64,000 bases of DNA from Candidatus Obscuribacterales bacterium (lineage in GTDB: Bacteria > Cyanobacteriota > Vampirovibrionia > Obscuribacterales > Obscuribacteraceae): contig JAGVKG010000067.1 in assembly GCA_020050685.1 (NCBI GenBank), positions 1 to 64,000 of the forward strand, read 5' to 3'. Within the stretch, counting starts at the first letter, position 1. Each line of letters starts with the position of its first letter. Below the pieces are notes generated by a model that made no database searches, was not told the origin of the DNA, and saw only the letters and a program-made list of their open reading frames with translations. The position numbers and the translations under genes are program-made. Below are positions 3,692 through 39,235 of the stretch, one piece after another.

Positions 3692-4558
3692 TTAGCTAAT
3701 CAGATTATGCTTTTGGCAAAGCTCTTTGTATTTTGAAAGTCCGGCCAAATGCTCGTCTTTCATCTCGAAGTTGAGATCAGACAAATAATATTGTTCCAGT
3801 CTGGCTTTGCTTAGTCCTGATCTTTGAGCCGCAAGCGTTAGTACTTCCGGGAAAAGGCTGGATAAGCCAAGTTCAAGGGCTTTAAGTAATTGGCTCTTGA
3901 TTTGCAAGACAGCTTCTTGGTTGGCTGCAACCCAAGAGGTTTTGGCGGCCCAGAGTCCGAATACCATTGGTAATTGATATCGTTCATACCACCACTTGCT
4001 CAAATCAATTCTTTCGGCAGAGCCAGACCAAAGCTTATCGTGCTCGAGCGCGCGGTCACCAATGATTAAGGCGCCATCAAAACTGGGATCAAAAATATCC
4101 GGTTGATTGGAGGCAACAAATTCTGGATGCAAACCATATTCTTCCGCCAACAGCACTTTTAACAAGTTGACGGAGGTAGCAGACTGGGCCGTGACACAAA
4201 CACGTTTGAGTGATTGTTTATTTAAAGGTACTCGAGTGAAAAAGAGCACTGAGCCAACCGCGCCAACGGATGAAATTGATATGCCATCTAAGAGTTGAAA
4301 GTTATCTTTCAAATTAAAGGTCTGCAAGTAATAAAACGAACTCATCGCCCCTAAATCCAATTCATTTTGGGCAAAAGCTAAATTCAATGCCTGGGGATTA
4401 GCAAAGATTATGTCGGCGTTTAAACTGACGTGCTTTTTTTCAATTGGATAAGAAATTGGCAGACAGTTGAGAAAAGAAATTTGACCAAATCTTGGCAACC
4501 GTAAACTGGACGGCGAAACTTGCGTGGCTTGCGGCTCAACTAAGCCCTGTCTGATCAT
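3692..4558 (-). CDS. mqnA: Chorismate dehydratase MqnA (futalosine pathway of menaquinone synthesis)
   Basis: MqnA dehydrates chorismate to 3-enolpyruvylbenzoate, the first committed step of the futalosine route to menaquinone. The 288-residue protein has the periplasmic-binding-protein-like fold of the family: FGQISFLNCLPISYP near residues 26-40, SSVGAVGSVLFF mid-protein, SATSVNLLKVLL, and LIIGDRAL with W.....LPMVFGLWAAK toward the C terminus. About 20 extra residues precede the usual start. Its presence implies menaquinone as the quinone feeding the Rieske/cytochrome b genes at 34-38 kb. MqnB, MqnC, MqnD and MqnE are not in the window. Confidence 0.92.
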   Translation of the reverse strand: MIRQGLVEPQATQVSPSSLRLPRFGQISFLNCLPISYPIEKKHVSLNADIIFANPQALNLAFAQNELDLGAMSSFYYLQTFNLKDNFQLLDGISISSVGAVGSVLFFTRVPLNKQSLKRVCVTAQSATSVNLLKVLLAEEYGLHPEFVASNQPDIFDPSFDGALIIGDRALEHDKLWSGSAERIDLSKWWYERYQLPMVFGLWAAKTSWVAANQEAVLQIKSQLLKALELGLSSLFPEVLTLAAQRSGLSKARLEQYYLSDLNFEMKDEHLAGLSKYKELCQKHNLIS

Positions 4559-9384: not shown

Positions 9385-9979
9385 TTTGATCTTTTTCAGG
9401 CATGTCAGATTTCTGCCTATCCTTTTCAATTTGCTTTTGCAGGTCTTTGTCGGCTTTGCCTTCAGCAACCAAAGTGTTTGCGCCCTTGGCCTTTTCCTTC
9501 TTTTCTTTGTCGAGAGCCTTGGCAATTTTTTGCAGTTTGCGTGCCTGCCATTTAGCTTCGGCTTGTTCTTGAGGATCGGCATCATGGTGCCAAATCAGTT
9601 GCCATTCTTGTAAACAACGGCCTAAAAGTTTTTCGTCAACCTTGCCTTGATTGGCATAAAATTTAGCCGTCAGGGCTTTAGCATAAAGTAAGTGTCCTTC
9701 CGGATCACCTGGGTCTAGTTGAACGGCTTTGCCAATTTTGGCAATTGCCGCTTCAATATTCTCGTTGTCCATATCGACTTGGCCTTGGAAGCGCAAATAA
9801 GAAGCTTCCGAAAGACGTCCGGCAGGACCGATACCGAAATATGACGAGTCCGGAGCTTCTTTGGAATACATCTTGCCTCGGTTGTTAATTTGCGGCGAAA
9901 TGTCATCGGCAAAAGCAATTGAAGTCAAACTAATAGTTGAAACCAGGGCAGCCAAAATAGCCCTTTTATTTTTTCTCAT
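9344..9979 (-). CDS. Exported TPR-like protein
   Basis: A 211-residue protein with a clear Sec signal peptide (about residues 1-24, cleavage after SIAFA). Residues 57-115 contain one to two TPR-like helical repeats (SEASYLRFQGQVDMDNENIE, then a GDPEGHLLYAKAL segment). The C terminus from about 150 is a Lys/Glu/Ala-rich, probably coiled or disordered tail. It overlaps the end of the coiled-coil gene upstream by 14 bases, so the two are translationally coupled. Its own 3' end runs 41 bases into lipM on the other strand. A protein-protein role in the periplasm is likely; nothing more specific is visible. Confidence 0.72.
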   Translation of the reverse strand: MRKNKRAILAALVSTISLTSIAFADDISPQINNRGKMYSKEAPDSSYFGIGPAGRLSEASYLRFQGQVDMDNENIEAAIAKIGKAVQLDPGDPEGHLLYAKALTAKFYANQGKVDEKLLGRCLQEWQLIWHHDADPQEQAEAKWQARKLQKIAKALDKEKKEKAKGANTLVAEGKADKDLQKQIEKDRQKSDMPEKDQTTSIDNTHLVGGP

Positions 9980-10349
9980 TGTCTTGAGTTTCTCCTTGGC
10001 CTTCTTCTGGCGAATTGGTTACATCAGTTATGTCGACATGTTGAATCAAAGCTTGCTGGTTTTTGATTTCATTTTCCAAATTGCTTACCTTTTCATCAAT
10101 GCGAGAAATGTGCACTAAATCGGGACGGATGCGATCAAGCAAGATGTTGCCATCCAGGGCATTGGTATCACAATACAAAGAGTATGTTTTGGAGCCAATG
10201 GTTTGCAGGTATCTGACCTTTTCGCCTGTAAGGGTCATGATATCCATTTTTAGTTTGGTAATTTTTGCTGCCCGTCCCATTTGGTCGGCTGCTTGTTTGG
10301 TTGTTTGTTTGAAGCGATTGACGAAATCGTTGAAAGAAGGTCCTGACAT
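9966..10349 (-). CDS. Small coiled-coil protein of unknown function
   Basis: A 127-residue soluble protein starting MSGPSFNDFVNRF. The ATG at 10349 is chosen because GGAGGAGA lies just upstream; a longer reading starting 6 codons earlier would put that ribosome site inside the gene. Helical heptad-like sequence covers about 10-50 and 85-110, and the C terminus is acidic. It resembles short phage-shock- or DUF-type coiled-coil proteins only in general character. It overlaps the TPR gene downstream by 14 bases. I do not recognise a family. Confidence 0.6.
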   Translation of the reverse strand: MSGPSFNDFVNRFKQTTKQAADQMGRAAKITKLKMDIMTLTGEKVRYLQTIGSKTYSLYCDTNALDGNILLDRIRPDLVHISRIDEKVSNLENEIKNQQALIQHVDITDVTNSPEEGQGETQDNEKK

Positions 10350-10432
10350 AATTCTCCTCCATGCCACAAATAATATTACGGCAGTTGAGCGATTATCGCT
10401 TTAATAGCTGATTGTCAAGCAAACTTCTTAAT

Positions 10433-11662
10433 TTATGACAAGAGGCGCTTGTGCAAAAGTTTGACCGTGGTGTTAGCCGAGGAAAGCGGAACAAGCATGT
10501 TGACGGTCAGATCGCTTGTCGTCATCATTGCCAGTGGGATTTCATTTTGCATTAGGCAGTCAAATACTTGAGCAACGTGGGACGAATTGCTGGCTAAGCC
10601 GCGACCGACTATGGAAACCTTGGCCAAATCTTTTTCCACCTTAATTTTGGAAATCGTGCCATCAAACTCGCCAATTACCTTCCGAATTCGGGCACTGACT
10701 GTTTTACTGGCACTAAAACATATCTCTTGTGTATGTTCCTCTTCTCTTGTCAAAACCTGAATGGCATCGGTTGAGATTCCCATTTCTTGCATTAACTTGA
10801 AAAGTTGGCTTTGACTTTGTTGAATTAATTTGTCGGCGTTTGGTGTCGTGGTTTGATTGAAGACCAGGCGGAACCAATCTTGCGTGGTATCACAGGCAAT
10901 ACCACATACGGTATAAGAACCGGACAAATAGTGATGCGTAATCAGTGTACCAGGATCGCTTGGTTCAAAAGTTGAACGGACGCGCAGGGGGATATGCCCG
11001 TCTCTGGCTGTTTCGACCGAACGGGCATTGAGTACTTTGGCACCACAGGATGCCAGCTCAAGCATTTCTTCGTAACTAATAGCAGTCAATTTGCGAGCAT
11101 CAGTTACTTGGGCTGGATCGGCAGTATAAACACCTGTAACATCGGAATAAATGTCACAACGCTTAGCATGCAAGGCAGAAGCTAAGGCTGTGGCTGTCGT
11201 GTCGGATCCACCGCGGCCCAGCGTGGTTAATTCGTTTGTTTCAGTGGCGCCCTGAAAACCAGCGACAACAGCAATTTCACCTTCGGCAAGACAAGCTTCC
11301 AGTGCTTGTGGGCGAATCGCTTTGATTCTGGCTTGACCAAAATTTGGCTCGGTAATGATACCGGCTTGAGGACCGGTAAATGACTTAGCTTTTCCACCAA
11401 GCGATTGAATGGCCATGGACATCAAGGCAATGGAGACTTGCTCGCCTGTAGCCATTAACATGTCCAGCTCACGCTCTGGTGGGCTTTCTTGCACGCTTTG
11501 AGCAAGCGAAATTAAGTTGTCCGTAGTATGACCCATGGCAGAGACTACCGTGGTTACTTGATGACCGTCCTTCTGTGCCTGGCAAGCAATTTCTGCCGCT
11601 TTAAAAATATGCGCGACGTCCGCAACGGAAGTGCCACCAAATTTTTGAACCAGTCTGGACAT
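10433..11662 (-). CDS. lysC: Aspartate kinase
   Basis: It phosphorylates aspartate to aspartyl phosphate, the entry to lysine, threonine, methionine and diaminopimelate synthesis. The 409-residue product starts MSRLVQKFGGTSVAD (KFGGTS is the amino-acid-kinase signature). It continues with the nucleotide-binding TLGRGGSDTTA segment and the SDVTGVYTADP motif at the end of the kinase domain. Two C-terminal ACT domains follow (from about residue 265), ending VGRGLASNSSHVAQVF, so feedback control by end-product amino acids is expected. The ATG at 11662 gives standard family length; an in-frame reading extends 23 codons further without support. It is a monofunctional enzyme with no fused homoserine dehydrogenase. 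Confidence 0.95.
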   Translation of the reverse strand: MSRLVQKFGGTSVADVAHIFKAAEIACQAQKDGHQVTTVVSAMGHTTDNLISLAQSVQESPPERELDMLMATGEQVSIALMSMAIQSLGGKAKSFTGPQAGIITEPNFGQARIKAIRPQALEACLAEGEIAVVAGFQGATETNELTTLGRGGSDTTATALASALHAKRCDIYSDVTGVYTADPAQVTDARKLTAISYEEMLELASCGAKVLNARSVETARDGHIPLRVRSTFEPSDPGTLITHHYLSGSYTVCGIACDTTQDWFRLVFNQTTTPNADKLIQQSQSQLFKLMQEMGISTDAIQVLTREEEHTQEICFSASKTVSARIRKVIGEFDGTISKIKVEKDLAKVSIVGRGLASNSSHVAQVFDCLMQNEIPLAMMTTSDLTVNMLVPLSSANTTVKLLHKRLLS

Positions 11663-13710: not shown

Positions 13711-15315
13711 ATGGCTCAAAACAAGAATGAAGATATCAAATACAGCCTATCGGATATACCGATTAAGGCATGTTATGGGCCCTCCGACTTGAAAGACTGG
13801 GATTACAAGCGCAAGCTTGCCGATCCAGGCGAGTTTCCTTATACGCGTGGGATTCATCGTGACATGTATCGTGGCAAGATTTGGACCATGCGTCAGTTTG
13901 CTGGTTTTGGTGGTCCGGAAGAAACCAATGAGCGATTTAAATATTTGCTGTCGCAAGGACAAACCGGATTGTCCACGGCTTTTGATTTGCCAACTCTCAT
14001 GGGCTATGACTCAGATCATCCGCGTGCCAATGGCGAGGTAGGGGTCTGTGGAGTGGCTGTCGACTCACTTGAGGATGTGGAAATTCTCTATCGTGACTTG
14101 CCGCTCGACAAGGTTTCCACTTCAATGACCATTAACGGTCCAGCTTCAATAGTTTTGGCTATGTTTTTAGCTAATGCGGAAAAACGTGGTTTTGATTGGC
14201 GCAAGCTTGATGGCACATTGCAAAATGACATTTTCAAAGAGTACATTGCCCAAAAAACTTATTTGTTGCCTCCGCGTCCGGCCTTGAAACTAATTCAAGA
14301 CATGATGGTTTTTACCACGCGCCAGGTACCGCGTTGGAATTTCATTTCTGTTTCTGGCTACCATATTCGTGAAGCTGGAGCCACGGCAATTCAAGAGTTG
14401 GCATTTACACTTGCAGATGGTTTCGCTTATGTTGATGCAGGTATAGAAGCTGGTTTATCGCTGGATGAATTTGCCCCACGCTTGTCTTTCTTCTTCAATG
14501 CTCATATCGACTTTTTTGAAGAGATTGCTAAATATCGGGCTGCCCGCCGGATTTGGGCTAAGCGCATGCGCGAGCATTATGGCTCGACAAATGAGCGCAC
14601 ATTGAAATTGCGATTTCACACTCAAACAGCTGGCTGCAGTTTAACGGCACAACAGCCAGAAAATAATATTGTCCGTACGGCCATCGAAGCTTTGGCTGGT
14701 GTGCTTGGTGGCACTCAGTCATTACATACTAATTCAATGGATGAAGTTTTGGGACTGCCAACGCAAAAGGCAGCGCATATTGCTTTGCGCACGCAGCAAA
14801 TTATTGCTCATGAGACTGGTGTGGCTGATGTAGTTGATCCTCTAGCAGGCTCATATTATGTTGAGTGGCTGACTGATGAGATGGAACGTGGTGCCAATGA
14901 GTACTTCAAGAAAATCGCAGAAGTTGGTGGGGTGATGGTTGGTATTGAAAAAGGTTATTTCATGAAAGAAATAGCCGATGCGGCCTACCATTTTCAACAA
15001 AAGCTTGATTCCAAGGATAGAATTTTTGTTGGCTTGAATGCTTTTACGGAAGAAGCTCCGGGGCAGCAAATCGATATTCTAAAAATTGGACGGCAGTATC
15101 AGGAAAGGCAAACCGAACGTTTGGCTAAATTGAAAGCCCGGCGCGATCAAGCAAAAGTTGATGCTTCCCTCAAGGCATTAAAAGAAGGTGTTGCTCAAGG
15201 GCAAAATTCTTTTGAGCTTTTATTGGACTCGGTAAAAACTTATGCCACTTTGGGTGAGATTTGTGATGCTTTACGCCAGGTCTGTGGTGCGTATCGTGAA
15301 CCAGCGATTTTTTAG
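13711..15315 (+). CDS. icmA: Coenzyme B12-dependent acyl-CoA mutase large subunit, isobutyryl-CoA mutase (IcmA) type
   Basis: The 534-residue protein is the substrate-binding TIM-barrel subunit of a methylmalonyl-CoA-mutase-family enzyme and lacks the C-terminal cobalamin domain, so it needs a separate B12-binding partner. Two residues set substrate choice in this family. Methylmalonyl-CoA mutase has Tyr89 in WTIRQYAGF and Arg207 in KEFMVRN. Here the same segments read WTMRQFAGF (F63) and KEYIAQK (Q181), the Phe/Gln pair of isobutyryl-CoA mutase. The predicted reaction is therefore interconversion of isobutyryl-CoA and n-butyryl-CoA. SGYHIREAGAT retains the active-site histidine. No small-subunit gene or MeaB-type chaperone lies next to it; a TPR gene follows. 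Confidence 0.85.
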   Translation: MAQNKNEDIKYSLSDIPIKACYGPSDLKDWDYKRKLADPGEFPYTRGIHRDMYRGKIWTMRQFAGFGGPEETNERFKYLLSQGQTGLSTAFDLPTLMGYDSDHPRANGEVGVCGVAVDSLEDVEILYRDLPLDKVSTSMTINGPASIVLAMFLANAEKRGFDWRKLDGTLQNDIFKEYIAQKTYLLPPRPALKLIQDMMVFTTRQVPRWNFISVSGYHIREAGATAIQELAFTLADGFAYVDAGIEAGLSLDEFAPRLSFFFNAHIDFFEEIAKYRAARRIWAKRMREHYGSTNERTLKLRFHTQTAGCSLTAQQPENNIVRTAIEALAGVLGGTQSLHTNSMDEVLGLPTQKAAHIALRTQQIIAHETGVADVVDPLAGSYYVEWLTDEMERGANEYFKKIAEVGGVMVGIEKGYFMKEIADAAYHFQQKLDSKDRIFVGLNAFTEEAPGQQIDILKIGRQYQERQTERLAKLKARRDQAKVDASLKALKEGVAQGQNSFELLLDSVKTYATLGEICDALRQVCGAYREPAIF

Positions 15316-29261: not shown

Positions 29262-29508
29262 TACTTGATTACCAAAAGGAGATCTATGAGGAGATCCATA
29301 AAGAGAAATAGCAAACTATAAATGGCCCTCTTAAGTTTAGCTTCCGTCTTGAAATTTTGCTCTTACTCTTCAAAGGCTTTTAGGCTGGCTGAATAAAATT
29401 GCCTTCATGGTCAGGCGGAAAGAATCACCGGAAGCGTCGCCAGATATATGCATGACCACTACAATAGACTGATTGCCCTCTGAAATTGATTGGCGTAAAA
29501 ATAATCGT

Positions 29509-30210
29509 ATGAAAGTAATTGTCGGCTTAGGAAATCCCGGTCAGGAATATGCCAACACGCGCCACAATCTTGGCTTCATGGTGGTTGACAAGCTGGCGAG
29601 CCTTTTGCTTGAAAGTGAAAAGCCTGAAGGCGCAAGCCTCCTCAAAGGTCTTTTAAATTTCTTGGGACAGCATGATTCAGCATTTAGTCACAAAAAGGCT
29701 TTGTATGCCGACATTGCGAAAGTCAAGTTGCAAAGCGCAAAGCGGAAAAACTCTGCCAAGCCAGAGGAAAGTCAAGATTTACTTTTAGTCAAACCAACTA
29801 CATATATGAATTTGGTTGGCAAATCCGTACAAGCCATTCTTTCTTGGTACAAAATTGATTTGAGCGACATTCTGATTGTCCATGATGACGTTTCTTTGCC
29901 TCTCGGAAAGCTACGTTTGCAAAAAGATGGCGGTGCCGGTGGTCAGCATGGCATTGAATCGATTATTGAAGTTTGTGGTGGCAAGAATAATTTTTCTCGC
30001 TTGAAAGTTGGTTGCGGACCAGATCCTGGTGGTGACAAAAGAGCGAATTATGTTTTGGCACCACTACCTGTGTTAGAGCGCGAAATTTACGAGCTTTGTA
30101 TAACTACGGCAGCGAATGCGGCACTTGATTGCTTTCAATTTGGCATTGCCAAGGCGATGAATCAATACAATGGTTTGAATCTGTTGCCAACTGATCAAGG
30201 CGAAAATTAG
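29509..30210 (+). CDS. pth: Peptidyl-tRNA hydrolase
   Basis: Pth releases tRNA from peptidyl-tRNAs that drop off the ribosome. The 233-residue product (ATG at 29509, MKVIVGLGNPGQEY) has the catalytic Asn (GLGNPG), His (TRHNLGF) and Asp (HDDVSLPLGKLRL), and the KPTTYMNLVGKSV segment. It is about 35-40 residues longer than E. coli Pth because of a Lys-rich insertion at about 45-85. The substrate-binding loop reads AGGQHGIESI where most homologues have GGHNGL, so the conserved His-Asn pair is Gln-His. It should be functional but the substitution is unusual. Confidence 0.93.
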   Translation: MKVIVGLGNPGQEYANTRHNLGFMVVDKLASLLLESEKPEGASLLKGLLNFLGQHDSAFSHKKALYADIAKVKLQSAKRKNSAKPEESQDLLLVKPTTYMNLVGKSVQAILSWYKIDLSDILIVHDDVSLPLGKLRLQKDGGAGGQHGIESIIEVCGGKNNFSRLKVGCGPDPGGDKRANYVLAPLPVLEREIYELCITTAANAALDCFQFGIAKAMNQYNGLNLLPTDQGEN

Positions 30211-30579: not shown

Positions 30580-31962
30580 ATGTACTTAGAAAGGATTCTC
30601 AGCGACAAGGAAGGCAGTGCCAGTCGGAACTTTTTCCTCTCAGCATTGTGGTGGTCGCTACTTGGAATGGGCGCTGGATTATTTGCCGGAATGGAATTTT
30701 CCAATCCTGACTTAGTCCATAACATTCCCCAACTCTCTATGCCGCACTTACGCATGTGGCACGTCAATGCCGTGGCAATTGGTTGGCTTTCCATGGGTTA
30801 TGTGGGCACGATGTTCCACTTTGTGCCTACTCTGGCCAAAACCAAATTATGGAGTGAGCGCTTGGGCAACTTCACCATGTGGGCATGGAACTTGGTCATG
30901 GTCGGTGCTTTCTGCACGCTGCTCAATGGTGCAACCGAAGGCCGTGAATATGCTGAGCTTTCCGCGGTCCTGGATGTGTTGGTGGCAGTAGCCTTGGTGG
31001 CAGTGGCGCTCAATATCTATATGACGGTCGTTAACCGCCGCGTCAAGAAGCTTTATGTTTCACTTTGGTATTTCCTTGGAGCACTCTTTTGGTTCCCTCT
31101 TGTATACATTATCGGACAGCGCACCTTTGTGGCATTGCCAGGTTTGAATGATGCAATTATCGGTTGGTTTTACGGACATAATATTTTAGGTATGTGGTTT
31201 ACCACAGTTGGCGTCGGCATGATGTATTACTTATTGCCGCGCTTGACTAATGCTCCCCTTTATTCTCATGGTTTGTCCATGTTGGGATTCTGGGGCATTG
31301 CGTTGTTCTATGCACCAACTGGCACGCACCACATTACGCAATCTCCGGTTCCAGAATGGTTGAAGGCAATTGCGATTATTTCCTCAGTCTTTTTGCTTGT
31401 GCCGGTGCTGACCGTATTGACCAACTTCTTTATGACCATGAAGGGTAAATGGCAAATGGTAGTTACTGATATGCCATTGCGCTTTACTGTAACTTCTTGC
31501 ATCTTCTATTTAATTACTTGTACGCAAGGACCATTCCAAGCCACACGCTGGATTAATTGGTACTTGCACTTTTCCCAGTGGGTAGTAGGACATGCTCACT
31601 TGGCACTGCTCGGTACCTTCTCTTTCATACTTACGGCTGCCTTCTATTATTCAATTCCCCGTCTAACCGGACGTGAATGGGCAAGTCAAGGTATGATTAG
31701 AGCGCATTGGTGGCTAAAGACACTCGGCTTTACATTGATGATGCTTTCCTTGACCACAGCTGGTTTGATTCAGGCAGCTGGTTGGCAGATGGGTATTCCT
31801 GTTGATCAATGGGGCTTATCAATTCGTCCTTATTGGTTTCTTCGAGCAATATCAGGAGTGATGATCGTGCTTGGTCAATTCATCTTTGCTTACAACACGT
31901 ATAAGACGCTTTATACAAAAGCACCGCAGCCTGTGGCTCTCAAAGCGGAGGTGAAAGCATAA
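30580..31962 (+). CDS. ccoN: C-family (cbb3-type) cytochrome c oxidase subunit I
   Basis: CcoN is the catalytic, proton-pumping subunit that reduces oxygen to water with electrons from cytochrome c. The 460-residue protein has about 12 transmembrane helices. Visible cofactor ligands are H61 (low-spin heme b, MWHVNA), H200 (CuB, YGHN), H250/H251 (CuB, GTHH), and H338/H340 (GHAH, high-spin and low-spin hemes). Y244, six residues before the paired histidines, sits where the C-family cross-linked tyrosine belongs, so oxygen chemistry is supported rather than NO reduction. It is the first gene of a twelve-gene operon, and its stop overlaps the next start (TAATG). C-family oxidases are usually high-affinity enzymes for low oxygen. 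Confidence 0.95.
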   Translation: MYLERILSDKEGSASRNFFLSALWWSLLGMGAGLFAGMEFSNPDLVHNIPQLSMPHLRMWHVNAVAIGWLSMGYVGTMFHFVPTLAKTKLWSERLGNFTMWAWNLVMVGAFCTLLNGATEGREYAELSAVLDVLVAVALVAVALNIYMTVVNRRVKKLYVSLWYFLGALFWFPLVYIIGQRTFVALPGLNDAIIGWFYGHNILGMWFTTVGVGMMYYLLPRLTNAPLYSHGLSMLGFWGIALFYAPTGTHHITQSPVPEWLKAIAIISSVFLLVPVLTVLTNFFMTMKGKWQMVVTDMPLRFTVTSCIFYLITCTQGPFQATRWINWYLHFSQWVVGHAHLALLGTFSFILTAAFYYSIPRLTGREWASQGMIRAHWWLKTLGFTLMMLSLTTAGLIQAAGWQMGIPVDQWGLSIRPYWFLRAISGVMIVLGQFIFAYNTYKTLYTKAPQPVALKAEVKA

Positions 31963-32879
31963 TGAACGGCTATCGCCTTGGTGCCATTGGTATCATCATC
32001 ACTTTCTTTACAATCATTACGGCCACAGTGCTTTTGCCTATGGTTTTGTTCAATCCTAAACCATCCGGACATGGCAATAACTACACGCTTACTCAAGTTG
32101 CCGACCCGGCTCGCGGCAGACGGATTTATGTAAGAGAAGGTTGTTTTTATTGCCACACGCAATTTACCCGTTTGCAAGACCGGGGTTATGGCCCGTTGGT
32201 AAAAGCAGGAGACTATGTTTATGAAACTCCGCACCAATTAGGTACCGCCCGTACCGGTCCGGATTTGACTAACGAAGGTGGTAAGTTCCCATCGCAATGG
32301 CAAAAGGCTCACTTGATTAATCCACGGGCACTGAAGCCCGGTTCAATCATGCCGTCCTTTAGTTTTTTGGACGATCGCGATATGAACGATTTGGTCGCTT
32401 ACATTCAAACACTGGGTAATGAGCGTAAGGTAACTGCCTACGTTGAAGCACCAGTGGAATACAAACCAATTTTGGCCCGCAAAACTGTGGATACCGGCTC
32501 CGATGCAGCAGCCAATGCTGGTCGTGGTATCTATACGCAAAACTGTGCTGCTTGTCACGGACTTGAGGGTCTGGGCAATGGACCAAACTCAATTTCCATT
32601 GAGAAGAAGCCAGCTAATTTCACCAGACCTTTTTATAAGCAATACCCTGATGATTTCTGGTTCTATCGCGTATCAGAAGGAATTATCGGTACACGTATGC
32701 CACGCTTTGGTGAGACGCTGACAGAGGAACAACGTTGGTACTTGGTTGCTTATCTGAAGACTCTGCAAAAGAATAGTGAAGATACTGTCGACAAGCTTGA
32801 CCAATTGAACAAGGTAGAGCAAATCAAACTACCGAATTTAAGTGGCCAGCGTTGGGAACCACCATCGGGTGGCGACTAA
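31962..32879 (+). CDS. CcoO-type monoheme subunit fused to a CcoP-like cytochrome c domain
   Basis: A 305-residue membrane-anchored diheme cytochrome c. An N-terminal helix (about 7-29) leads into a CcoO-like domain (ARGRRIYVREGCFYCHTQ, heme motif CFYCH at 61-65, with LGTARTGPDLTNEGG and SIMPSF typical of CcoO; M130 as sixth ligand). A linker follows, then a second cytochrome c domain with CAACH at 195-199 and M246 (GTRMPRFG). In most bacteria CcoO carries one heme and CcoP is a separate diheme protein; here one polypeptide supplies both a CcoO and a single CcoP-like heme. It delivers electrons from soluble or lipoprotein cytochrome c to CcoN. Its start overlaps the ccoN stop. Confidence 0.9.
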   Translation: MNGYRLGAIGIIITFFTIITATVLLPMVLFNPKPSGHGNNYTLTQVADPARGRRIYVREGCFYCHTQFTRLQDRGYGPLVKAGDYVYETPHQLGTARTGPDLTNEGGKFPSQWQKAHLINPRALKPGSIMPSFSFLDDRDMNDLVAYIQTLGNERKVTAYVEAPVEYKPILARKTVDTGSDAAANAGRGIYTQNCAACHGLEGLGNGPNSISIEKKPANFTRPFYKQYPDDFWFYRVSEGIIGTRMPRFGETLTEEQRWYLVAYLKTLQKNSEDTVDKLDQLNKVEQIKLPNLSGQRWEPPSGGD

Positions 32880-32896
32880 TTCAGAGGAGAAGAATT

Positions 32897-33148
32897 GTGT
32901 GTCCTAATTGCATCCTAAATCAAGTAGGAATTTCCCCAGGTCTCTATGTGGCCTTTGGCATCTGTGCCTTTTTTATGATTGCTGGAATTGCGGCAATGAT
33001 CTGGGCCTTTAAAAATGGTGAATTTGAAGATATGGAATCATCCAAGTTTGAAATGCTTGATGATGGTGACAGTACCGTACAGGCCGAACGTGCCAAGGCC
33101 AATCTGGCACGCTTGAGAACGCAGTCGGAAGCACAATCTGGATCGTAG
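32897..33148 (+). CDS. ccoS: CcoS-like cbb3 oxidase assembly protein
   Basis: An 83-residue single-helix protein. GTG at 32897 is chosen because AGAGGAGA lies five bases upstream. After a short MCPNC leader, a helix (about 15-37) is followed directly by WAFKNGEFEDMESSKFEMLD. This matches the CcoS pattern of a helix, then W[AS].[KR].GQF[DE]D, then an acidic tail. CcoS is needed to mature cbb3 oxidase, in concert with the copper ATPase CcoI. The extended tail of about 20 residues and the N-terminal CxxC are not usual. It lies 17 bases after the CcoO-P gene. Confidence 0.8.
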   Translation: MCPNCILNQVGISPGLYVAFGICAFFMIAGIAAMIWAFKNGEFEDMESSKFEMLDDGDSTVQAERAKANLARLRTQSEAQSGS

Positions 33149-33157
33149 GAGAAAAAA

Positions 33158-33322
33158 ATGGCAGGCGAAAAATCAGGAGAGGCTCTCGCTCAAGAGCCAC
33201 ACTACGAAGAAGTATCCGAGTATCGGATTGGTGAAGGTGCGCCTCCACTGCCTTTGATTGTCGCTTTTGCTCTCATCGTTCTTTGGGCAATGATTTCTTG
33301 GATTCCCTTTTTTGGCTACTAA
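33158..33322 (+). CDS. 54-residue single-helix membrane protein of the respiratory operon
   Basis: The reading frame starts ATG after GTAGGAGAAAAAA, a good ribosome site, 9 bases past ccoS. It encodes a polar, acidic N terminus (MAGEKSGEALAQEPHYEEVS) followed by one hydrophobic helix (about 31-53) ending FFGY. Size and topology recall CcoQ- or CcoH-like accessory subunits or short cytochrome oxidase subunit IV types, but no family can be assigned. The tight spacing and the helix make it a likely subunit or assembly factor of the oxidase. Confidence 0.75.
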   Translation: MAGEKSGEALAQEPHYEEVSEYRIGEGAPPLPLIVAFALIVLWAMISWIPFFGY

Positions 33323-33344
33323 AAACATGCAATTTCGCGAACAT

Positions 33345-34118
33345 ATGAAAAAAACTCTCTTACTAGGTCTTATCCCAATCATGCTTGCCGGTTGTACTGG
33401 CAGTAAGGTCAACATTGGTTCAAACGATGCCAAACTGGTATCAGAAAATGTGACTGAAGCACAAAATGTTGTGATCTATCCGGACGACAACCCATCAGTT
33501 GCTGATGGCAAAGGCGTTTGGCAGAAAATGAATTGTGCTCAGTGCCATTCCGATACTGGTAAGCCAGTTTCTGGTAAGGCGCAAGTGAATTTGGCCGATG
33601 CCGAATACATGGCCAAGCAAAAGCCACTCGATCAATATGTATTCCTTACTTACGGCAAGCCCGGTGTCAATCACCCGCAATTGAAAAATGCTTTGAGTCG
33701 TCGTGAACTTTGGGACCTAGTGTTTTATTCACGCTCGCTGGCCATTGCTCCACTGACTGATGAAGAAGTAGCGCAAGTCTTGCCAGTTTGGGGCTCAAAC
33801 TGTGCAGTCTGCCATGGTACGCGTGGACACGGTGACGGACCGCTTGCCAAAAATTTAGATCCGACACCAGCTAACTTCCACCAATTCGATCGTTTCTACG
33901 ATCGTGATGACAACATTTTGGAAGACCATATTGCTAATGGTATTCCATGGGAAGGAATGCCTAATTTCTTGAACAAGCAAGACAGAACCAAGAATGTCAA
34001 ATTTGATCGCGCCTATATCAAAAAGCTAGTGCAATTTGTGCGTCATTTCCATGAAGACATTCACCCCACCGTGGCGCAAACGCCAGACACAACTAAACCG
34101 GATACAAAGGCCGAGTAG
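33345..34118 (+). CDS. Diheme cytochrome c lipoprotein
   Basis: A 257-residue lipoprotein from the ATG at 33345: signal MKKTLLLGLIPIMLAGC with the lipobox LAGC and lipidated C17. ATG at 33327 is an in-frame alternative. Two heme c motifs are present, CAQCH (64-68) and CAVCH (153-157), the latter in a standard class I cytochrome fold with GHGDGPLAKNL and MPNF as a probable methionine ligand. It sits between the oxidase and Rieske genes and is tethered to a membrane surface. It is therefore the obvious electron carrier from the Rieske protein to the CcoO-P subunit, without a diffusible cytochrome. Confidence 0.9.
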   Translation: MKKTLLLGLIPIMLAGCTGSKVNIGSNDAKLVSENVTEAQNVVIYPDDNPSVADGKGVWQKMNCAQCHSDTGKPVSGKAQVNLADAEYMAKQKPLDQYVFLTYGKPGVNHPQLKNALSRRELWDLVFYSRSLAIAPLTDEEVAQVLPVWGSNCAVCHGTRGHGDGPLAKNLDPTPANFHQFDRFYDRDDNILEDHIANGIPWEGMPNFLNKQDRTKNVKFDRAYIKKLVQFVRHFHEDIHPTVAQTPDTTKPDTKAE

Positions 34119-34147
34119 ACAGACAGAATTATTACTGTCAAGGATGG

Positions 34148-34732
34148 ATGATTATGACTGCCAATTTGCCAGAGGGTACATCAAGAAGAACATTGCTAAA
34201 AGTTGTGGCGGCCATTCCCTTGGCGTTCACATTTGGCTTGGTAGCATCGCCCTTGTTGCGTTATTTGCGGCCAACAATTGGTCCGCTTGATTTGACCCAA
34301 CCATCAGACCAACCACAAGCTTTGAAAGACGTGATCTTTACCGATTCTGATTTCCCGGAACCGTGGACATGCATTCCTTTTACCTTCTCTCAAACGTATA
34401 AAGAATACAATCCGGAAGGACAGGAAGTGCGCAACATCCCTGGCTTCATTGTCAATTTGCCAACCGGGGAAAAAGTTGCTTACTCGCGCATTTGCCCACA
34501 CTTAGGTTGCATCTTCAATTTCGTCAAAGATCCACAAGAATGTTTGAAGGGTTACAACTTCTTACCGCAAGGACCAGTCTTTGCTTGCCCGTGCCACTTC
34601 TCCGTTTATGACATTGCTCAAGGCGGAAAAGTTGTCTCCGGTCCAGCACCAAGACCACCAAGAAGTTTTAGCTTGGTTACGCAAGGCGACAAGATTATTG
34701 TTAAGTCATTGGAGGCCGGGGGAATTGCCTAG
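34148..34732 (+). CDS. Rieske [2Fe-2S] protein of a cytochrome bc complex
   Basis: A 194-residue protein with a twin-arginine N terminus (TSRRTLLKVV) and a single hydrophobic anchor (about 18-36), then the Rieske fold. Cluster ligands are C116 and H118 (CPHLGC) and C147 and H150 (CPCHFSVYD); C121 and C149 form the conserved disulfide. It would take one electron from quinol at the Qo site of the adjacent cytochrome b and pass it to the lipoprotein cytochrome c encoded just upstream. ATG at 34148 or 34154 are both possible. Its last 8 bases overlap the start of the next gene. Confidence 0.95.
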   Translation: MIMTANLPEGTSRRTLLKVVAAIPLAFTFGLVASPLLRYLRPTIGPLDLTQPSDQPQALKDVIFTDSDFPEPWTCIPFTFSQTYKEYNPEGQEVRNIPGFIVNLPTGEKVAYSRICPHLGCIFNFVKDPQECLKGYNFLPQGPVFACPCHFSVYDIAQGGKVVSGPAPRPPRSFSLVTQGDKIIVKSLEAGGIA

Positions 34733-36647
34733 TACATCGAATGCTGGAATAAACGCAAGAATTGCGGGAGCGACCGACTGGCTGAAAACGAGAGTCGCCA
34801 ACATTGATATTTTTGATGAACATTATCAAGCCGAATCTAGGGCAAATCCTTTTTATGCCTTAGGCTCGATTTTTTACTTAGTATGGTTCTTGGTAATGGT
34901 GACCGGCTGTGTCTTGATCATGTGGTACATCCCCACAAAAGCCGGCGCTTATGCATCCATTATGGAAATTACCCACCACATTCCTTTCGGGGGACTAGTG
35001 CGCGGTATGCATAAGTATGGTGCAGACGCCATGATTATTGCTGCCACCATGCGCATGTTCCGTATGTTCCTTTGCGCAGACTACAAGCCAGGCAAAGAAT
35101 TCAATATTGCCATTGGTTTGGTGGCGCTTTTGCTTTCTATGTATTCCGGATTGACCGGATATCTTTTGATTTGGAACCAGCGCGCTTATTGGGCTACCAA
35201 AGTGTTTGCTACGTTCCCCACTTACATGGATCAATTTCCGGTCATGGGAGATTTTTACCAGCCTCTAGTTAAGTCCGTGCACATGGGTTGGAACACAGCC
35301 GAGTTTCTCCTCGGTGGTGGCGCTGCGATTACGCAAGAGACGATTACTCGCTTTTTCTCTTTGCACTTAGCTTTCTCATTAATCCCACTGATTTTTGTTG
35401 AACTCTATTTTTATAAGACTGGTCACACCAGAATTGCTTTGAACTGGACCAAGCGCACAATCCTCACCCTGATGCTGGTGATTGTGGCAATTGTTTTGCC
35501 GGCGGCAATTGGTGCTCGCTCCAATCCGGAAGTGACACCACTGCCAATTCTTTCCGACTGGTATTTCCTTGGCTTGTATCAAATGTATAAGTATCTCGAG
35601 CCAGTCGTGGCAACAGAAATTACCATGTTGATCCCACTGACGGTGGTCATACTACCTTTCTTGGACTCTTACATAACAGGTCCGGAAAAGGACATTTGGA
35701 AACGACCCGTGGTTTTGATGACCTGCATCATGGGTTTCTTGAATTGGATTGTATTTTCTTGGCTGATTATTATCGGTATAGCCAATATCCACTCCGACCC
35801 ACCGTACTGGCGCGATTTCTTGTTCCTCATGGTCAACATTGGTATGATTTGGCAGCTTAAGCTGATTTGGGATAATCCAGACGCTCAAGCCCGTGCCAAA
35901 GCCGCTGTCGGTTGCATGATCATGGGTGTAACTTGTGCCATACAAACGGTTTGCGCAGTCTTCTTCTACTTTATGGCCAAGACAGAAATGTTCTTCCCAC
36001 CAATCACGCAAGCTTTTGCTTATTGGTTAGCTAAGCCCTTTATGGGACAAGCCGGCGATAAAGTAGTCGATCTTTCTCGTGAGGCTTTCAAGGTCAATCC
36101 GGATTACTGGCATTATCAGTATTTGTTGCCTGCCGGTGGAGATATTAAGGGCAAGGAAATTTTGCAAAATCTCGATTCCGTTTGTCAGCAAGGCACACCA
36201 ATTGATTTCATTTTCAAAGCCATCCCTTCTTTTACTGCTCAACCACTGGCAACGATTGAGGCATTGAAAGCACATGGCGTGACAGAATTGCCTGATGTTT
36301 ACAGCATTGCCGGCTATCCTTTGGAAAATGCCAAATACGGCATTGGTAACTTGCCCTGGTATGAGTATCGTGGCGTAATTGACTACATGGTGACTAATCA
36401 ATGGTCTGCCGACTACGCCAGATTCTGCGATCGTATGAATGGCGTAATTACTGTCTTCAATCAGGCATCACTGACCAATGCCAGCTTGCCGACATATCCA
36501 ATGGAAGTGCCACCAGTCGATTGGGGTTGGATGGTTGGTGGCTTTGTCACCATGGTGCTTTGTTTCTATACATGGTGGCAATGTAAGAATGCCCAAGTTC
36601 CTAAGCCGGTACAACCACCAGCCAAAGAAGTGGCACCGGTAGCCTAG
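34725..36647 (+). CDS. Cytochrome b of an unusual bc complex, lacking the heme bH ligands
   Basis: A 640-residue protein. TTG at 34725 is taken as start because GGAGG lies nine bases upstream inside the Rieske gene and no ATG is suitable. Residues about 40-255 are the four-helix cytochrome b core and 255-360 the subunit-IV-like part with SDWY (277-280, the PEWY equivalent of the Qo site). Of the four heme histidines, H96 and H214 (heme bL) remain. The bH pair is R110 and Y228. After about 360 there are several more helices and an extra soluble segment of ~140 residues without CxxCH, ending in a final helix. Quinol oxidation with the Rieske protein looks possible; normal electron transfer across the membrane does not. 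Confidence 0.85.
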   Translation: MPSTSNAGINARIAGATDWLKTRVANIDIFDEHYQAESRANPFYALGSIFYLVWFLVMVTGCVLIMWYIPTKAGAYASIMEITHHIPFGGLVRGMHKYGADAMIIAATMRMFRMFLCADYKPGKEFNIAIGLVALLLSMYSGLTGYLLIWNQRAYWATKVFATFPTYMDQFPVMGDFYQPLVKSVHMGWNTAEFLLGGGAAITQETITRFFSLHLAFSLIPLIFVELYFYKTGHTRIALNWTKRTILTLMLVIVAIVLPAAIGARSNPEVTPLPILSDWYFLGLYQMYKYLEPVVATEITMLIPLTVVILPFLDSYITGPEKDIWKRPVVLMTCIMGFLNWIVFSWLIIIGIANIHSDPPYWRDFLFLMVNIGMIWQLKLIWDNPDAQARAKAAVGCMIMGVTCAIQTVCAVFFYFMAKTEMFFPPITQAFAYWLAKPFMGQAGDKVVDLSREAFKVNPDYWHYQYLLPAGGDIKGKEILQNLDSVCQQGTPIDFIFKAIPSFTAQPLATIEALKAHGVTELPDVYSIAGYPLENAKYGIGNLPWYEYRGVIDYMVTNQWSADYARFCDRMNGVITVFNQASLTNASLPTYPMEVPPVDWGWMVGGFVTMVLCFYTWWQCKNAQVPKPVQPPAKEVAPVA

Positions 36648-36670
36648 ATTAGGTCTCATAAGGTAAGACA

Positions 36671-37006
36671 GTGAGCGACAGACAAAGACAAACTGAGAAT
36701 CAAGAACTCAAGGCAAAAAAGATGCCTTGGGCTCTGAAGATGTCGGTTTTTGTTTTGTCAATAATGTCGCTTTCCTGGTTTTTTGCTGGTGGGAGACAAG
36801 TACATGAAACTAATACGCCTGGCGATTGGGCCTTGCTTGTTGGTGGCACTTTGCTCACTTGCGCATTGATATTTTTGCAAGCCTATTGGATTTACTTTGA
36901 AGAAAAGGCCAAGGGCACATTGAGAAAGCAAATTGCTTTGTTCGAGCAAATCAATCAGCGTTTGAATAAACGTCCAAATGGTAGTGACTTAGAGAGGGTA
37001 GGTTAG
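36671..37006 (+). CDS. Two-helix membrane protein of the respiratory operon
   Basis: A 111-residue protein starting GTG, 23 bases after the first cytochrome b. A charged N terminus (~1-20) is followed by two transmembrane helices (about 22-41 and 52-75) and a basic, amphipathic C-terminal tail (KAKGTLRKQIALFEQINQRL). No cofactor motif and no family I recognise. Position between the two cytochrome b genes suggests a structural subunit. Confidence 0.75.
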   Translation: MSDRQRQTENQELKAKKMPWALKMSVFVLSIMSLSWFFAGGRQVHETNTPGDWALLVGGTLLTCALIFLQAYWIYFEEKAKGTLRKQIALFEQINQRLNKRPNGSDLERVG

Positions 37007-37009
37007 GAA

Positions 37010-37345
37010 ATGAAACCAATAACCATAATCTTGGTTGGGATTGCAGTACTTACCTGTTTGGGATGCACGTTCTTCATGCCCTGGGCAGAATTAGGTTTGC
37101 CAACCACTGCACAAGACTTTCCTGGTCCATTGAAAGGCTTGGTTACCTCACTGGGTCTTGGCGGATTATTTGAATCGGTTCGCCAACAAGTGGTGAACGG
37201 TATTTTGAAAGTTGAGCATGATCCAAATTTCAACTTTTATGTTTATTCGTTCTTTATGGGCATTGCCATGATTGCAGCCGCAATCGGTATTTGCGTAGTT
37301 GGACGTGAGGATGCCGAAGAGAAAACGGTATTACCATCCAAATAA
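37010..37345 (+). CDS. Two-helix membrane protein of the respiratory operon
   Basis: A 111-residue protein that begins 3 bases after the preceding stop with AGGTTAGGAA as ribosome site. A helix at about 4-24 (with C16 and C19, LTCLGCTFF) is followed by an extracytoplasmic loop of ~50 residues and a second helix at about 80-98. The first helix could be read as a signal sequence, but the LGC context is a poor lipobox. No family recognised. Probably a subunit of the same complex. Confidence 0.72.
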   Translation: MKPITIILVGIAVLTCLGCTFFMPWAELGLPTTAQDFPGPLKGLVTSLGLGGLFESVRQQVVNGILKVEHDPNFNFYVYSFFMGIAMIAAAIGICVVGREDAEEKTVLPSK

Positions 37346-37387
37346 GTTTTGTGGTTTTAGAGGCGACATTTTAAAGGTAAGGAAGCA

Positions 37388-38533
37388 ATGCAAAAGCTTT
37401 ATACAGATCCCCTAACAAAAGGCATGTTGTTGCTGGAAGATTGGACAAATAAAATTGCCACCAGCAAATACAATCCTTTTTACTATCACGGAGCGTTGCC
37501 ACAGTTTTTCCTCTGGGTACTCTTTTTGACAGGGCTATTGCTCTTTGCTTATTACATTCCGACAATCGATAACGCTTATGCTTCGGAAAAATTGATTAAC
37601 GCCTGGACTTCCGTTGATTACATTACTAATACGATTCCATTTGGTGCGGTCTTCCGCGGTATGCACCGTTATGCCGGTGATGCCATGGTTTTGACCATTG
37701 TGCTGCACGTGCTCCGAGTTTGGTTTACCGATCGCTATCGCCAATATCGCATTGTCCAATGGCTATCTGGTGTTGTATTGCTTTTGATGGTGCTCTTTAT
37801 CGGGCAGACCGGTTATTACTTGGTTTGGGACGATCGTTCTTTGATACTTACTCGCATGACCGTTTCTGCATTTGATGCACTGCCACTAATTGGTGGACCT
37901 TTGAAGACTTGGTTCTTGAACGGCGAAGAAATTACCAACCTGACATTGTCAAACTTCCTTTTCATTCACATAGGACTTTCTTTTGGTCTATTGTTTGGCC
38001 TTTGGATTCACTATGTGCGTATGCAACGCCCAGTGATTACACCTCCTCCGGCAATCAACTACATTTTGGTAGCAATTCTTTTGATGGTGGTGGCATGGAT
38101 GCCAATTGCCTCTGGTAACATGGCGCAGCTGACGCAGCAGCCAACATCTTTTGAAATTGACTGGTTCTTCCTCTGGCCTTATTGGATGATGGCAAATATG
38201 CCTTTGGGTGCTTATTGGCTTGTACTCATCGTTGGCACTGTGCTTTTGTGTTTGATTCCTTACACAGCCAAGACTCCGCCAGTTGAAGCTGCAGAAGTGG
38301 TGTTGAATAAGTGCACTGGCTGCTCGCTTTGCTCGAAAGACTGCCCCTACAATGCAATTGAAATGGTGCCAGCTCCAGCTGGTTCGCGCTTCAAGCTTTT
38401 GGCAACAGTTAAGGAATTTCGTTGTTCTGGTTGTGGGGTTTGCGTCGGAGCTTGTGCTTTCGATGCAATCGACTTGCCGAACTTGCTTGATACTGATGTG
38501 ACTTCACAAATCAAAGCACTGGTGCAAAATTAA
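37388..38533 (+). CDS. Cytochrome b fused to a 2[4Fe-4S] ferredoxin domain
   Basis: A 381-residue fusion. Residues ~30-215 form a four-helix cytochrome b core with all four heme ligands present (H93/H107 in the GMHRYAGDAM helix and H194/H208). Two further helices follow (about 224-243 and 262-290), between which the Qo motif is degraded to IDWF (257-260). The C terminus is a bacterial-type ferredoxin domain with two complete cluster motifs, C309/312/315/319 and C346/349/352/356, each ending CxxxCPY or CxxxCAF. That domain should sit on the cytoplasmic side, near heme bH. It would connect the quinone pool or cytochrome b1 to the MvhD-like protein encoded next. Confidence 0.88.
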   Translation: MQKLYTDPLTKGMLLLEDWTNKIATSKYNPFYYHGALPQFFLWVLFLTGLLLFAYYIPTIDNAYASEKLINAWTSVDYITNTIPFGAVFRGMHRYAGDAMVLTIVLHVLRVWFTDRYRQYRIVQWLSGVVLLLMVLFIGQTGYYLVWDDRSLILTRMTVSAFDALPLIGGPLKTWFLNGEEITNLTLSNFLFIHIGLSFGLLFGLWIHYVRMQRPVITPPPAINYILVAILLMVVAWMPIASGNMAQLTQQPTSFEIDWFFLWPYWMMANMPLGAYWLVLIVGTVLLCLIPYTAKTPPVEAAEVVLNKCTGCSLCSKDCPYNAIEMVPAPAGSRFKLLATVKEFRCSGCGVCVGACAFDAIDLPNLLDTDVTSQIKALVQN

Positions 38534-38573
38534 GCTGACTGAGAAATTGGAAATTAGGAGATAACAACCGGCC

Positions 38574-39110
38574 ATGGCTGATTCCAAACAAAAAGTAGTG
38601 ACACTGATATGTGAGCGTTCTTGCGATCTTGATGCATCGCTTGATGCAACTGGTCACCTGAAAGAAGTTTCCGAAGTGTCTGTCGTCAAATTTCCTTGCT
38701 CAGGCATGATTCAACCTTTGATGATTGAAGCGGCGATGAAATCGGGAGCGACGGGTGTGATTGTCACCGGTTGCCAGATTGGTGACTGTTATTTCCGCGA
38801 AGGCAATCGCATGATTCGCGAGCGCTTGATTGGTGATCGTCCACCGGGTTTGAAGAAAACTGTCGATCGTAAAAGAGTAATTGCTCTTTGGCTTTCCCGC
38901 CCGCAAACCGGTCGCTTCATTTCTGAGGCAAAGAGCTTTGTTGCGCAGCTTGCTCAACTGCCGGCTCCGGCACCAGCTCTCGCTCCGGCAACTGCTCCTG
39001 CTGCTGCTAAACCGGCCGCTGCTAGTGCAAAAACAGCGGAAGCCAAAAAGCCAGAGAAAAAATCAGAGAGCACACCTGAATCTGGTGGCGCAAACGGTGA
39101 GGGGAAATAA
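38574..39110 (+). CDS. MvhD-like [2Fe-2S] electron-transfer protein
   Basis: A 178-residue protein whose first ~130 residues match the MvhD/hydrogenase delta-subunit family: CERSC (C13, C17), a CSG motif (C42), and GCQIGDCYFREGN (C67, C72). The C-terminal ~45 residues are an Ala/Pro/Lys low-complexity tail. MvhD carries a [2Fe-2S] cluster and, in methanogens and acetogens, passes electrons between hydrogenase and heterodisulfide reductase HdrA. No Hdr or hydrogenase gene is here. Following directly after the cytochrome b-ferredoxin gene, it is the likely cytoplasmic exit or entry of that branch. Confidence 0.82.
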   Translation: MADSKQKVVTLICERSCDLDASLDATGHLKEVSEVSVVKFPCSGMIQPLMIEAAMKSGATGVIVTGCQIGDCYFREGNRMIRERLIGDRPPGLKKTVDRKRVIALWLSRPQTGRFISEAKSFVAQLAQLPAPAPALAPATAPAAAKPAAASAKTAEAKKPEKKSESTPESGGANGEGK

Positions 39111-39112
39111 GC

Positions 39113-39235
39113 ATGGCAGCTAAACAAGAAAAACTTTCCGAAGTTCAAATCATCAGCCGCTGGGCGTGGTTTTTCGTGCTCTACTTTGCCTGCATTCTTT
39201 TAATTGCTTGCTTTGGTTTGGTAGCTGAGTTCTAA
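39113..39235 (+). CDS. 40-residue single-helix membrane protein closing the respiratory operon
   Basis: The ATG lies two bases after the MvhD-like stop, with GAGGGGAAA as ribosome site. The product has a polar N terminus (MAAKQEKLSEVQ) and one hydrophobic helix (about 16-38). Comparable in size to the small subunits (PetG/L/N-like or oxidase accessory helices) found in other bc/b6f and oxidase complexes, but with no sequence match I can claim. Only 7 bases separate its stop from the convergent MOSC gene. Confidence 0.7.
   Translation: MAAKQEKLSEVQIISRWAWFFVLYFACILLIACFGLVAEF

Follow-up and report, generated by a model that had tools for sequence, protein, structure and literature searches.

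The window analysed here is a stretch of 64,000 nucleotides from an Obscuribacterales bacterium (Melainabacteria; assembly GCA_020050685.1, contig JAGVKG010000067.1), and its positions 30580-39235 hold a 12-gene operon on the + strand. The operon is genuine, and as a respiratory gene set it is both unusual and deeply conserved. The operon encodes a C-family (cbb3-type) heme-copper oxidase, a diheme cytochrome c, a Rieske protein, and two cytochromes b (b1 and b2), the second of which is fused to a ferredoxin domain and followed by a FlpD protein. It is probable (roughly 65%) that these products form an asymmetric Rieske/cytochrome b-cbb3 assembly, in which b1 pairs with b2 and a ferredoxin-FlpD arm is attached at the n-side haem of b2. 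More tentatively, and at slightly less than even odds, this wiring would carry electrons inward from a low-potential cytosolic carrier, as a hard-wired, ferredoxin-assisted Q-cycle with O2 as its terminal acceptor. We infer the b1/b2 heterodimer and its association with the oxidase, as well as the electron donor and which way the electrons flow. The genes of the operon are as follows.

30580..31962, + strand: ccoN-like C-family heme-copper oxidase subunit I, 460 residues (Pfam COX1, 3e-80)
31962..32879, + strand: ccoO-ccoP fusion with two c-type haem motifs, 305 residues (Pfam FixO, 2.8e-31; Cytochrom_C, 1.1e-22)
32897..33148, + strand: ccoS-like maturation protein, 83 residues, GTG start (Pfam FixS, 1.2e-8)
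33158..33322, + strand: single-helix protein, 54 residues, with a counterpart in the same position in relatives across the class
33345..34118, + strand: diheme cytochrome c lipoprotein, 257 residues (two Pfam Cytochrom_C domains)
34148..34732, + strand: Rieske [2Fe-2S] protein, 194 residues (Pfam Rieske, 1.2e-8)
34725..36647, + strand: cytochrome b1, 640 residues, TTG start (Pfam Cytochrome_B, 7e-24)
36671..37006, + strand: protein (a) with two hydrophobic stretches, 111 residues, no Pfam match, kept in Obscuribacterales and most Caenarcaniphilales
37010..37345, + strand: protein (b) with two hydrophobic stretches, 111 residues, no Pfam match, kept in most Obscuribacterales
37388..38533, + strand: cytochrome b2 fused to a 2x[4Fe-4S] ferredoxin domain, 381 residues (Pfam Cytochrome_B, 2.7e-25, and Fer4)
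38574..39110, + strand: FlpD/MvhD-like [2Fe-2S] protein with an Ala/Pro/Lys-rich tail, 178 residues (Pfam FlpD, 2.3e-20)
39113..39235, + strand: single-helix protein, 40 residues, found in the same place in most relatives

The pairing of b1 with b2 is suggested by the loss of one haem site. The p-side haem ligands of b1 (H96/H214) are retained in 63/63 usable sequences, and in all 63 the two n-side His ligands have given way to R110 (Arg or Lys) and Y228; alignment with cytochrome b6 places R110 at the second His of helix B. Three rows with apparent n-side His were b2 proteins, and are not counted among the 63. In the same set E226 is invariant, and the Qo-motif region, SDWYFL, is a nearly invariant variant of PEWY. 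Cytochrome b2 keeps all four His (H93, H107, H194, H208) in 66/66 sequences, together with the eight ferredoxin Cys (65-66/66) and a Qo-type motif, xDWF, that is likewise a PEWY variant (D258 in 66/66, W259 in 52/66). Of the four ligands expected per cytochrome b, b1 thus has the p-side pair only and b2 the full complement, and both pairs are also present in three ordinary cytochrome b proteins of the same genome. AlphaFold models of b1 and b2 (predicted local distance difference test scores of 78.9 and 85.9, respectively) match cytochrome b, with the bc1-cbb3 supercomplex 8smr as the best PDB match for b2. Given the six membrane helices that precede it, the ferredoxin domain of b2 is expected on the cytoplasmic side.

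Without an n-side haem in b1, the low-potential electron could exit only through b2, and a b1 homodimer would trap it. Because the ligand loss is confined to b1 and b2 is intact, the b1/b2 heterodimer envisaged by the first-pass annotation gains a strong argument from the two sequence sets. A b6f-type n-side haem c was considered and found unsupported, as an alignment by eye sets Ala (b1) and Tyr/His (b2) against the Cys of b6. The b1 proteins of Obscuribacterales have a C-terminal extension of about 200 residues (window 35900-36647) with no Pfam match; shorter Caenarcaniphilales proteins are without it.

In the proposed wiring, menaquinol would be oxidized at a Qo-type site of b1. The high-potential electron would travel from the Rieske protein through the diheme cytochrome c and CcoO/P to CcoN and O2, and the low-potential electron from the b1 p-side haem, across the dimer, to the p-side and then the n-side haem of b2. 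The latter would be the only n-side haem of the pair, and is expected to lie nearest the ferredoxin domain. The arm would bring electrons to the same haem from a low-potential cytosolic carrier via FlpD and the [4Fe-4S]2 domain, the carrier probably being ferredoxin reduced by 2-oxoacid oxidoreductases. One arm electron and one Qo-site electron would then jointly reduce menaquinone at the b2 n-side haem.

The Rieske protein has the motifs CPHLGC and CPCHxSVY, of which the underlying CxHxGC and CPCH patterns are found in 61/61 sequences, and the cytochrome b gene is adjacent. At the tuning positions, Ser152 is present in 61/61 and Tyr154 in 51/61, with Phe at position 154 in 10/61; the Ser/Tyr pair predicts a high-potential Rieske centre. 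In CcoN, nine His (61, 200, 230, 250, 251, 330, 338, 340, 376) are invariant in 55 sequences, and both CxxCH motifs of the ccoO-ccoP fusion are invariant in 56. Haem and CuB ligands in CcoN and haem c motifs in CcoO/CcoP, alongside the COX1, FixO, and FixS matches, place the enzyme in the C (cbb3) family. Because CcoN falls below the cut-off of the NCBIfam ccoN equivalog (270 vs 583 bits), the oxidase is classed by this score as a divergent C-family member. The diheme cytochrome c conserves two CxxCH motifs in 56-57/57 sequences and the lipobox Cys17 in 50/57.

NCBIfam HdrA2 is collinear with the arm (b2 residues 301-380 match HdrA2 571-642, and FlpD matches HdrA2 646-771), and the ferredoxin part of b2 also matches the HdrA C-terminus (PDB 5odc_A, 565-649). 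Because the HdrA2 and PDB matches agree, the ferredoxin-FlpD arm is, judged by sequence, a homologue of the ferredoxin-MvhD wire at the HdrA2 C-terminus, here attached to a cytochrome b. FlpD scores 73 bits against its family cut-off of 22.3, retains four Cys in 65/65 sequences, and matches the MvhD chains 9sw2_D (5e-14) and 5odc_D (1.6e-12). For an HdrA or HdrABC-MvhAGD system, neither the HdrA flavoprotein body nor a second FlpD was found in the host genome (PF12831 is not specific for HdrA); HdrA was rejected as the FlpD partner, and the arm needs another. A Pfam scan of ten operon proteins revealed no flavin or NAD(P) domain, and the 54- and 40-residue proteins are too short for one.

Fusions of cytochrome b, ferredoxin, and FlpD also occur in metagenome-assembled genomes labelled Proteobacteria, Spirochaetes, and Chloroflexi, and the same fusion is present in 34/398 genomes sampled from the phylum of one such locus (L083). 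Residues 307-516 of a fused outgroup protein match HdrA2 571-768 collinearly (NCBIfam, 1e-21). On a phylogenetic tree, b2 and the outgroup fusions are split by a 99/99 branch from b1 and ordinary cytochromes b, and b1 and b2 are accordingly not recent duplicates. Genes for a CuA subunit II and a Gln-bearing eNOR-type subunit I are adjacent in 22/32 outgroup loci examined. These ba3-like enzymes were considered as O2 reductases, an assignment dropped for putative eNOR given the Gln at the catalytic Tyr position by which eNOR is recognised (PMC8756737). Other fusion loci lie near nirS-like or molybdoenzyme genes. No Rieske match was found at any examined fusion locus outside Melainabacteria; the module therefore does not need a Rieske protein, as an electron input would not.

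Several further features of these outgroup loci were observed. A one-helix protein of 165-190 residues often follows the fusions that lie beside a putative eNOR (L083, L085-L094, L172, L174, L179-L181, L184, L185, L187-L190); in the Spirochaetes and Chloroflexi loci it seems to form the C-terminal part of the fusion. At fusion loci without a nearby eNOR (L171, L173, L175-L178, L182, L183, L186), the neighbors identified by eye include either nirS-like cytochromes plus regulators of the nirD/L type, or a molybdoenzyme operon that also encodes ferredoxin, multihaem, and NrfD-like proteins. One Chloroflexi cytochrome b-ferredoxin fusion (L092:8992-11076) has a FlpD-like region from which all FlpD cysteines are lost. 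Tandem fusion paralogues in some genomes (L083:7271-10518; L188:6082-9498; L187:7554-11619) hint at heterodimers there too; the L187 copy at 9637-11619 has no ferredoxin cysteine motif.

Within the class, the operon order recurs in Obscuribacterales, Caenarcaniphilales, and Vampirovibrionales, with about 30-90% identity depending on gene and distance. The closest b2 relatives belong to Candidatus Obscuribacterales and other Melainabacteria metagenome-assembled genomes, including Ca. Obscuribacter phosphatis (L027) and Vampirovibrio chlorellavorus NCIMB 11383 (L076), and among the loci found through b2 the gene order is kept wherever the contig is long enough. Since these first loci had been found through b2, a ccoN search of 386 genomes of the phylum served as an independent repeat: each of the 10 class genomes in which this oxidase was found carries Rieske, b1, b2-ferredoxin, and FlpD, with the gene order of the operon. 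The first-pass annotation had named separation of the b2-ferredoxin and MvhD-like genes from the Rieske/ccoN block in related genomes as grounds for abandoning its proposal; the linkage holds in 10/10. In the first sample the b2 genomes all have this ccoN, and many other class genomes are without both. The Rieske-b1-b2-ferredoxin-FlpD set is not present at the ccoN loci examined outside the class. Identical gene order in dozens of independent genomes rules out chance open reading frames or misassembly.

All twelve open reading frames proposed by the first-pass annotation were confirmed in place with intergenic distances of -8 to +42 nt, and Pfam matches upheld its domain calls throughout. An open reading frame that reads as peptidyl-tRNA hydrolase (29473-30210) lies 5' of the operon across a gap of about 370 nt, and on the 3' side a convergent open reading frame ends 7 nt past the last operon stop. 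The two 111-residue proteins have two hydrophobic stretches each, and the 54- and 40-residue proteins one each; protein (b) has shorter two-helix counterparts in some Caenarcaniphilales. The window also contains a methylmalonyl-CoA mutase gene (13711-15312; Pfam, 7e-217), which is unrelated to the operon.

The host has futalosine-type menaquinone genes, and MenD is absent from its genome. An MqnA/MqnD-family gene of the futalosine pathway lies on the minus strand of the window (3692-4558), with a second copy on contig C53. Neither the host nor 15/16 other operon-bearing Melainabacteria have NuoF, which is present in 5/5 outgroup genomes. The host has two POR-family 2-oxoacid:ferredoxin oxidoreductases; one POR-type gene adjoins NuoM- and NuoL-like genes (L137:1242-7541, G000:C48) in this genome without NuoF. 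A ferredoxin-centred chain is supported by the lack of NuoF, the two POR enzymes, and the position of one of them beside the nuoM/nuoL-like genes. Because three further Rieske/cytochrome b loci with ordinary cytochrome b are found in the same genome (L014, L015, L016; L015 beside narH/narJ-like nitrate reductase genes), the operon is not the only complex III of the cell.

In Hdr-Mvh systems, electrons physiologically run from MvhD to HdrA. Inward flow is favored because of this direction, simple energetics, the occurrence of Rieske-free homologues beside electron-consuming reductases, and the ferredoxin-centred metabolism of the host. The first-pass annotation had left two directions side by side, with menaquinol oxidation split between O2 and a low-potential carrier, or low-potential electrons entering the membrane chain; the menaquinone and cytosolic ferredoxin economy behind both is supported, and the second direction would be preferred. 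Reversal of the same wiring is unlikely, though it deserves serious weight. Menaquinol at b1 would then supply O2 with one electron by way of Rieske, and its second electron would pass the b1 p-side haem and the p- and n-side haems of b2 into the arm, to reduce ferredoxin or NAD(P). Loss of the b1 n-side haem would force the low-potential electron toward the arm here too, and the Rieske Ser and Tyr are those of Kuenenia proteins, for which outward bifurcation to a low-potential carrier has been proposed (PMC12954380). The latter have potentials of +303 and +335 mV with menaquinone, from which, by symmetry, the p-side haem could be as low as -475 mV (PMC12954380). By an estimate from these potentials, however, the reaction would be energetically marginal for ferredoxin against the membrane potential; moreover, the Tyr is replaced by Phe in ten of the Rieske proteins, homologous modules exist without any Rieske, and in the known MvhD-HdrA wire the electrons of MvhD move toward their acceptor, not out through MvhD.

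It is also possible, but rather doubtful, that one operon encodes two separate complexes: a b1/Rieske/cbb3 chain, and a b2-FlpD homodimer acting as ferredoxin:menaquinone (or quinol) oxidoreductase. The fusion outside Melainabacteria, a separate lineage, lives without Rieske or b1, and the tandem paralogues of some genomes show it to be capable of pairing with itself or with a paralogue. Yet a b1 homodimer would have no low-potential exit for want of an n-side haem, and b2 strictly co-occurs with b1 in fixed order in the ten genomes. A role of the arm in redox sensing, or as a protective electron valve, in place of catalysis is very improbable: the lack of an identified FlpD partner and the cysteine-less Chloroflexi homologue would fit such a role, but in Melainabacteria all twelve cluster cysteines are conserved, as expected of an electron wire. 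Some considerations weigh against the b1/b2 assembly with inward flow as well. Gene linkage does not prove one complex, and no cytosolic partner of FlpD was identified. Menaquinone reduction at a quinone site on the n-side of b2 is a proposal; the Rieske protein, with its predicted high potential, would permit outward bifurcation too. A remote possibility is unusual haem ligation in b1, for instance by Tyr228.

Genes for complexes III and IV have already been reported in combination in Melainabacteria, with petB/petC-like genes by a type C oxidase (PMC6349859), and the set is very probably the same operon; the passages of that article examined here name petB, petC, and the oxidase, and do not mention the ferredoxin fusion, FlpD, or haem loss. 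A literature search for cytochrome b with FlpD or MvhD and heme-copper enzymes, covering few subscription papers, returned nothing on such a complex and no description of the arm or the haem loss. The pairing of complex III and IV genes is thus not new. A possibility that we hold with some reserve, as short of an even chance, is that of an undescribed complex with an obligate cytochrome b heterodimer, three b haems, and an HdrA-type ferredoxin-FlpD wire at its single n-side haem, where ferredoxin electrons and the low-potential Q-cycle branch would meet to drive O2 reduction (or the reverse).

It is interesting to consider what such a complex would mean. Haem-to-haem transfer between cytochrome b halves, which is debated, would be obligatory for turnover, and in non-photosynthetic relatives of cyanobacteria a cellular carrier, ferredoxin for example, would pass its electrons directly into respiration. 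For those aerobic Melainabacteria in which complex I is without the NADH module, the operon is a candidate point of electron entry. In cyclic electron flow around cytochrome b6f, it has long been asked whether ferredoxin feeds a Rieske/cytochrome b complex directly. If the proposal is true, a sister lineage of photosynthetic cyanobacteria has a ferredoxin link built into the complex, one dimer half being without its n-side haem, and the idea is directly testable.

Among known systems, bc1-cbb3 supercomplexes have a homodimeric cytochrome b with two n-side haems, and no ferredoxin/FlpD arm. As judged from gene linkage, the operon would share with them (PDB 8smr from Pseudomonas aeruginosa; engineered Rhodobacter capsulatus, PMC7876108) the route from Rieske/cytochrome b to a C-family oxidase through cytochrome c. 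The HdrA2/HdrA-MvhD wire (NF040770; PDB 5odc) has the same collinear arrangement of a 2x[4Fe-4S] C-terminal domain followed by MvhD [2Fe-2S], but the operon has no flavoprotein body and joins the wire to cytochrome b instead. The fusions beside eNOR contain the same module and group with b2 on the tree; in contrast to the operon, they have FlpD in the same protein, a CuA-type heme-copper partner with Gln for the catalytic Tyr, and neither Rieske nor b1. The Rieske/cytochrome b complexes of Kuenenia stuttgartiensis (Kuste4569-4574, Kustd1480-1485; PMC12954380) are likewise menaquinone-linked. Their redox arm lies on the n-side and is presumed to couple to a low-potential carrier, and their Rieske proteins carry Ser and Tyr/Phe where the potential is tuned. 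However, their arm is a putative NAD(P) oxidoreductase, accompanied by an n-side haem c and multihaem cytochromes, whereas the operon encodes a ferredoxin fused to a second cytochrome b together with FlpD, one cytochrome b without the n-side haem, and a cbb3-type oxidase, and has no NAD(P) oxidoreductase subunit.

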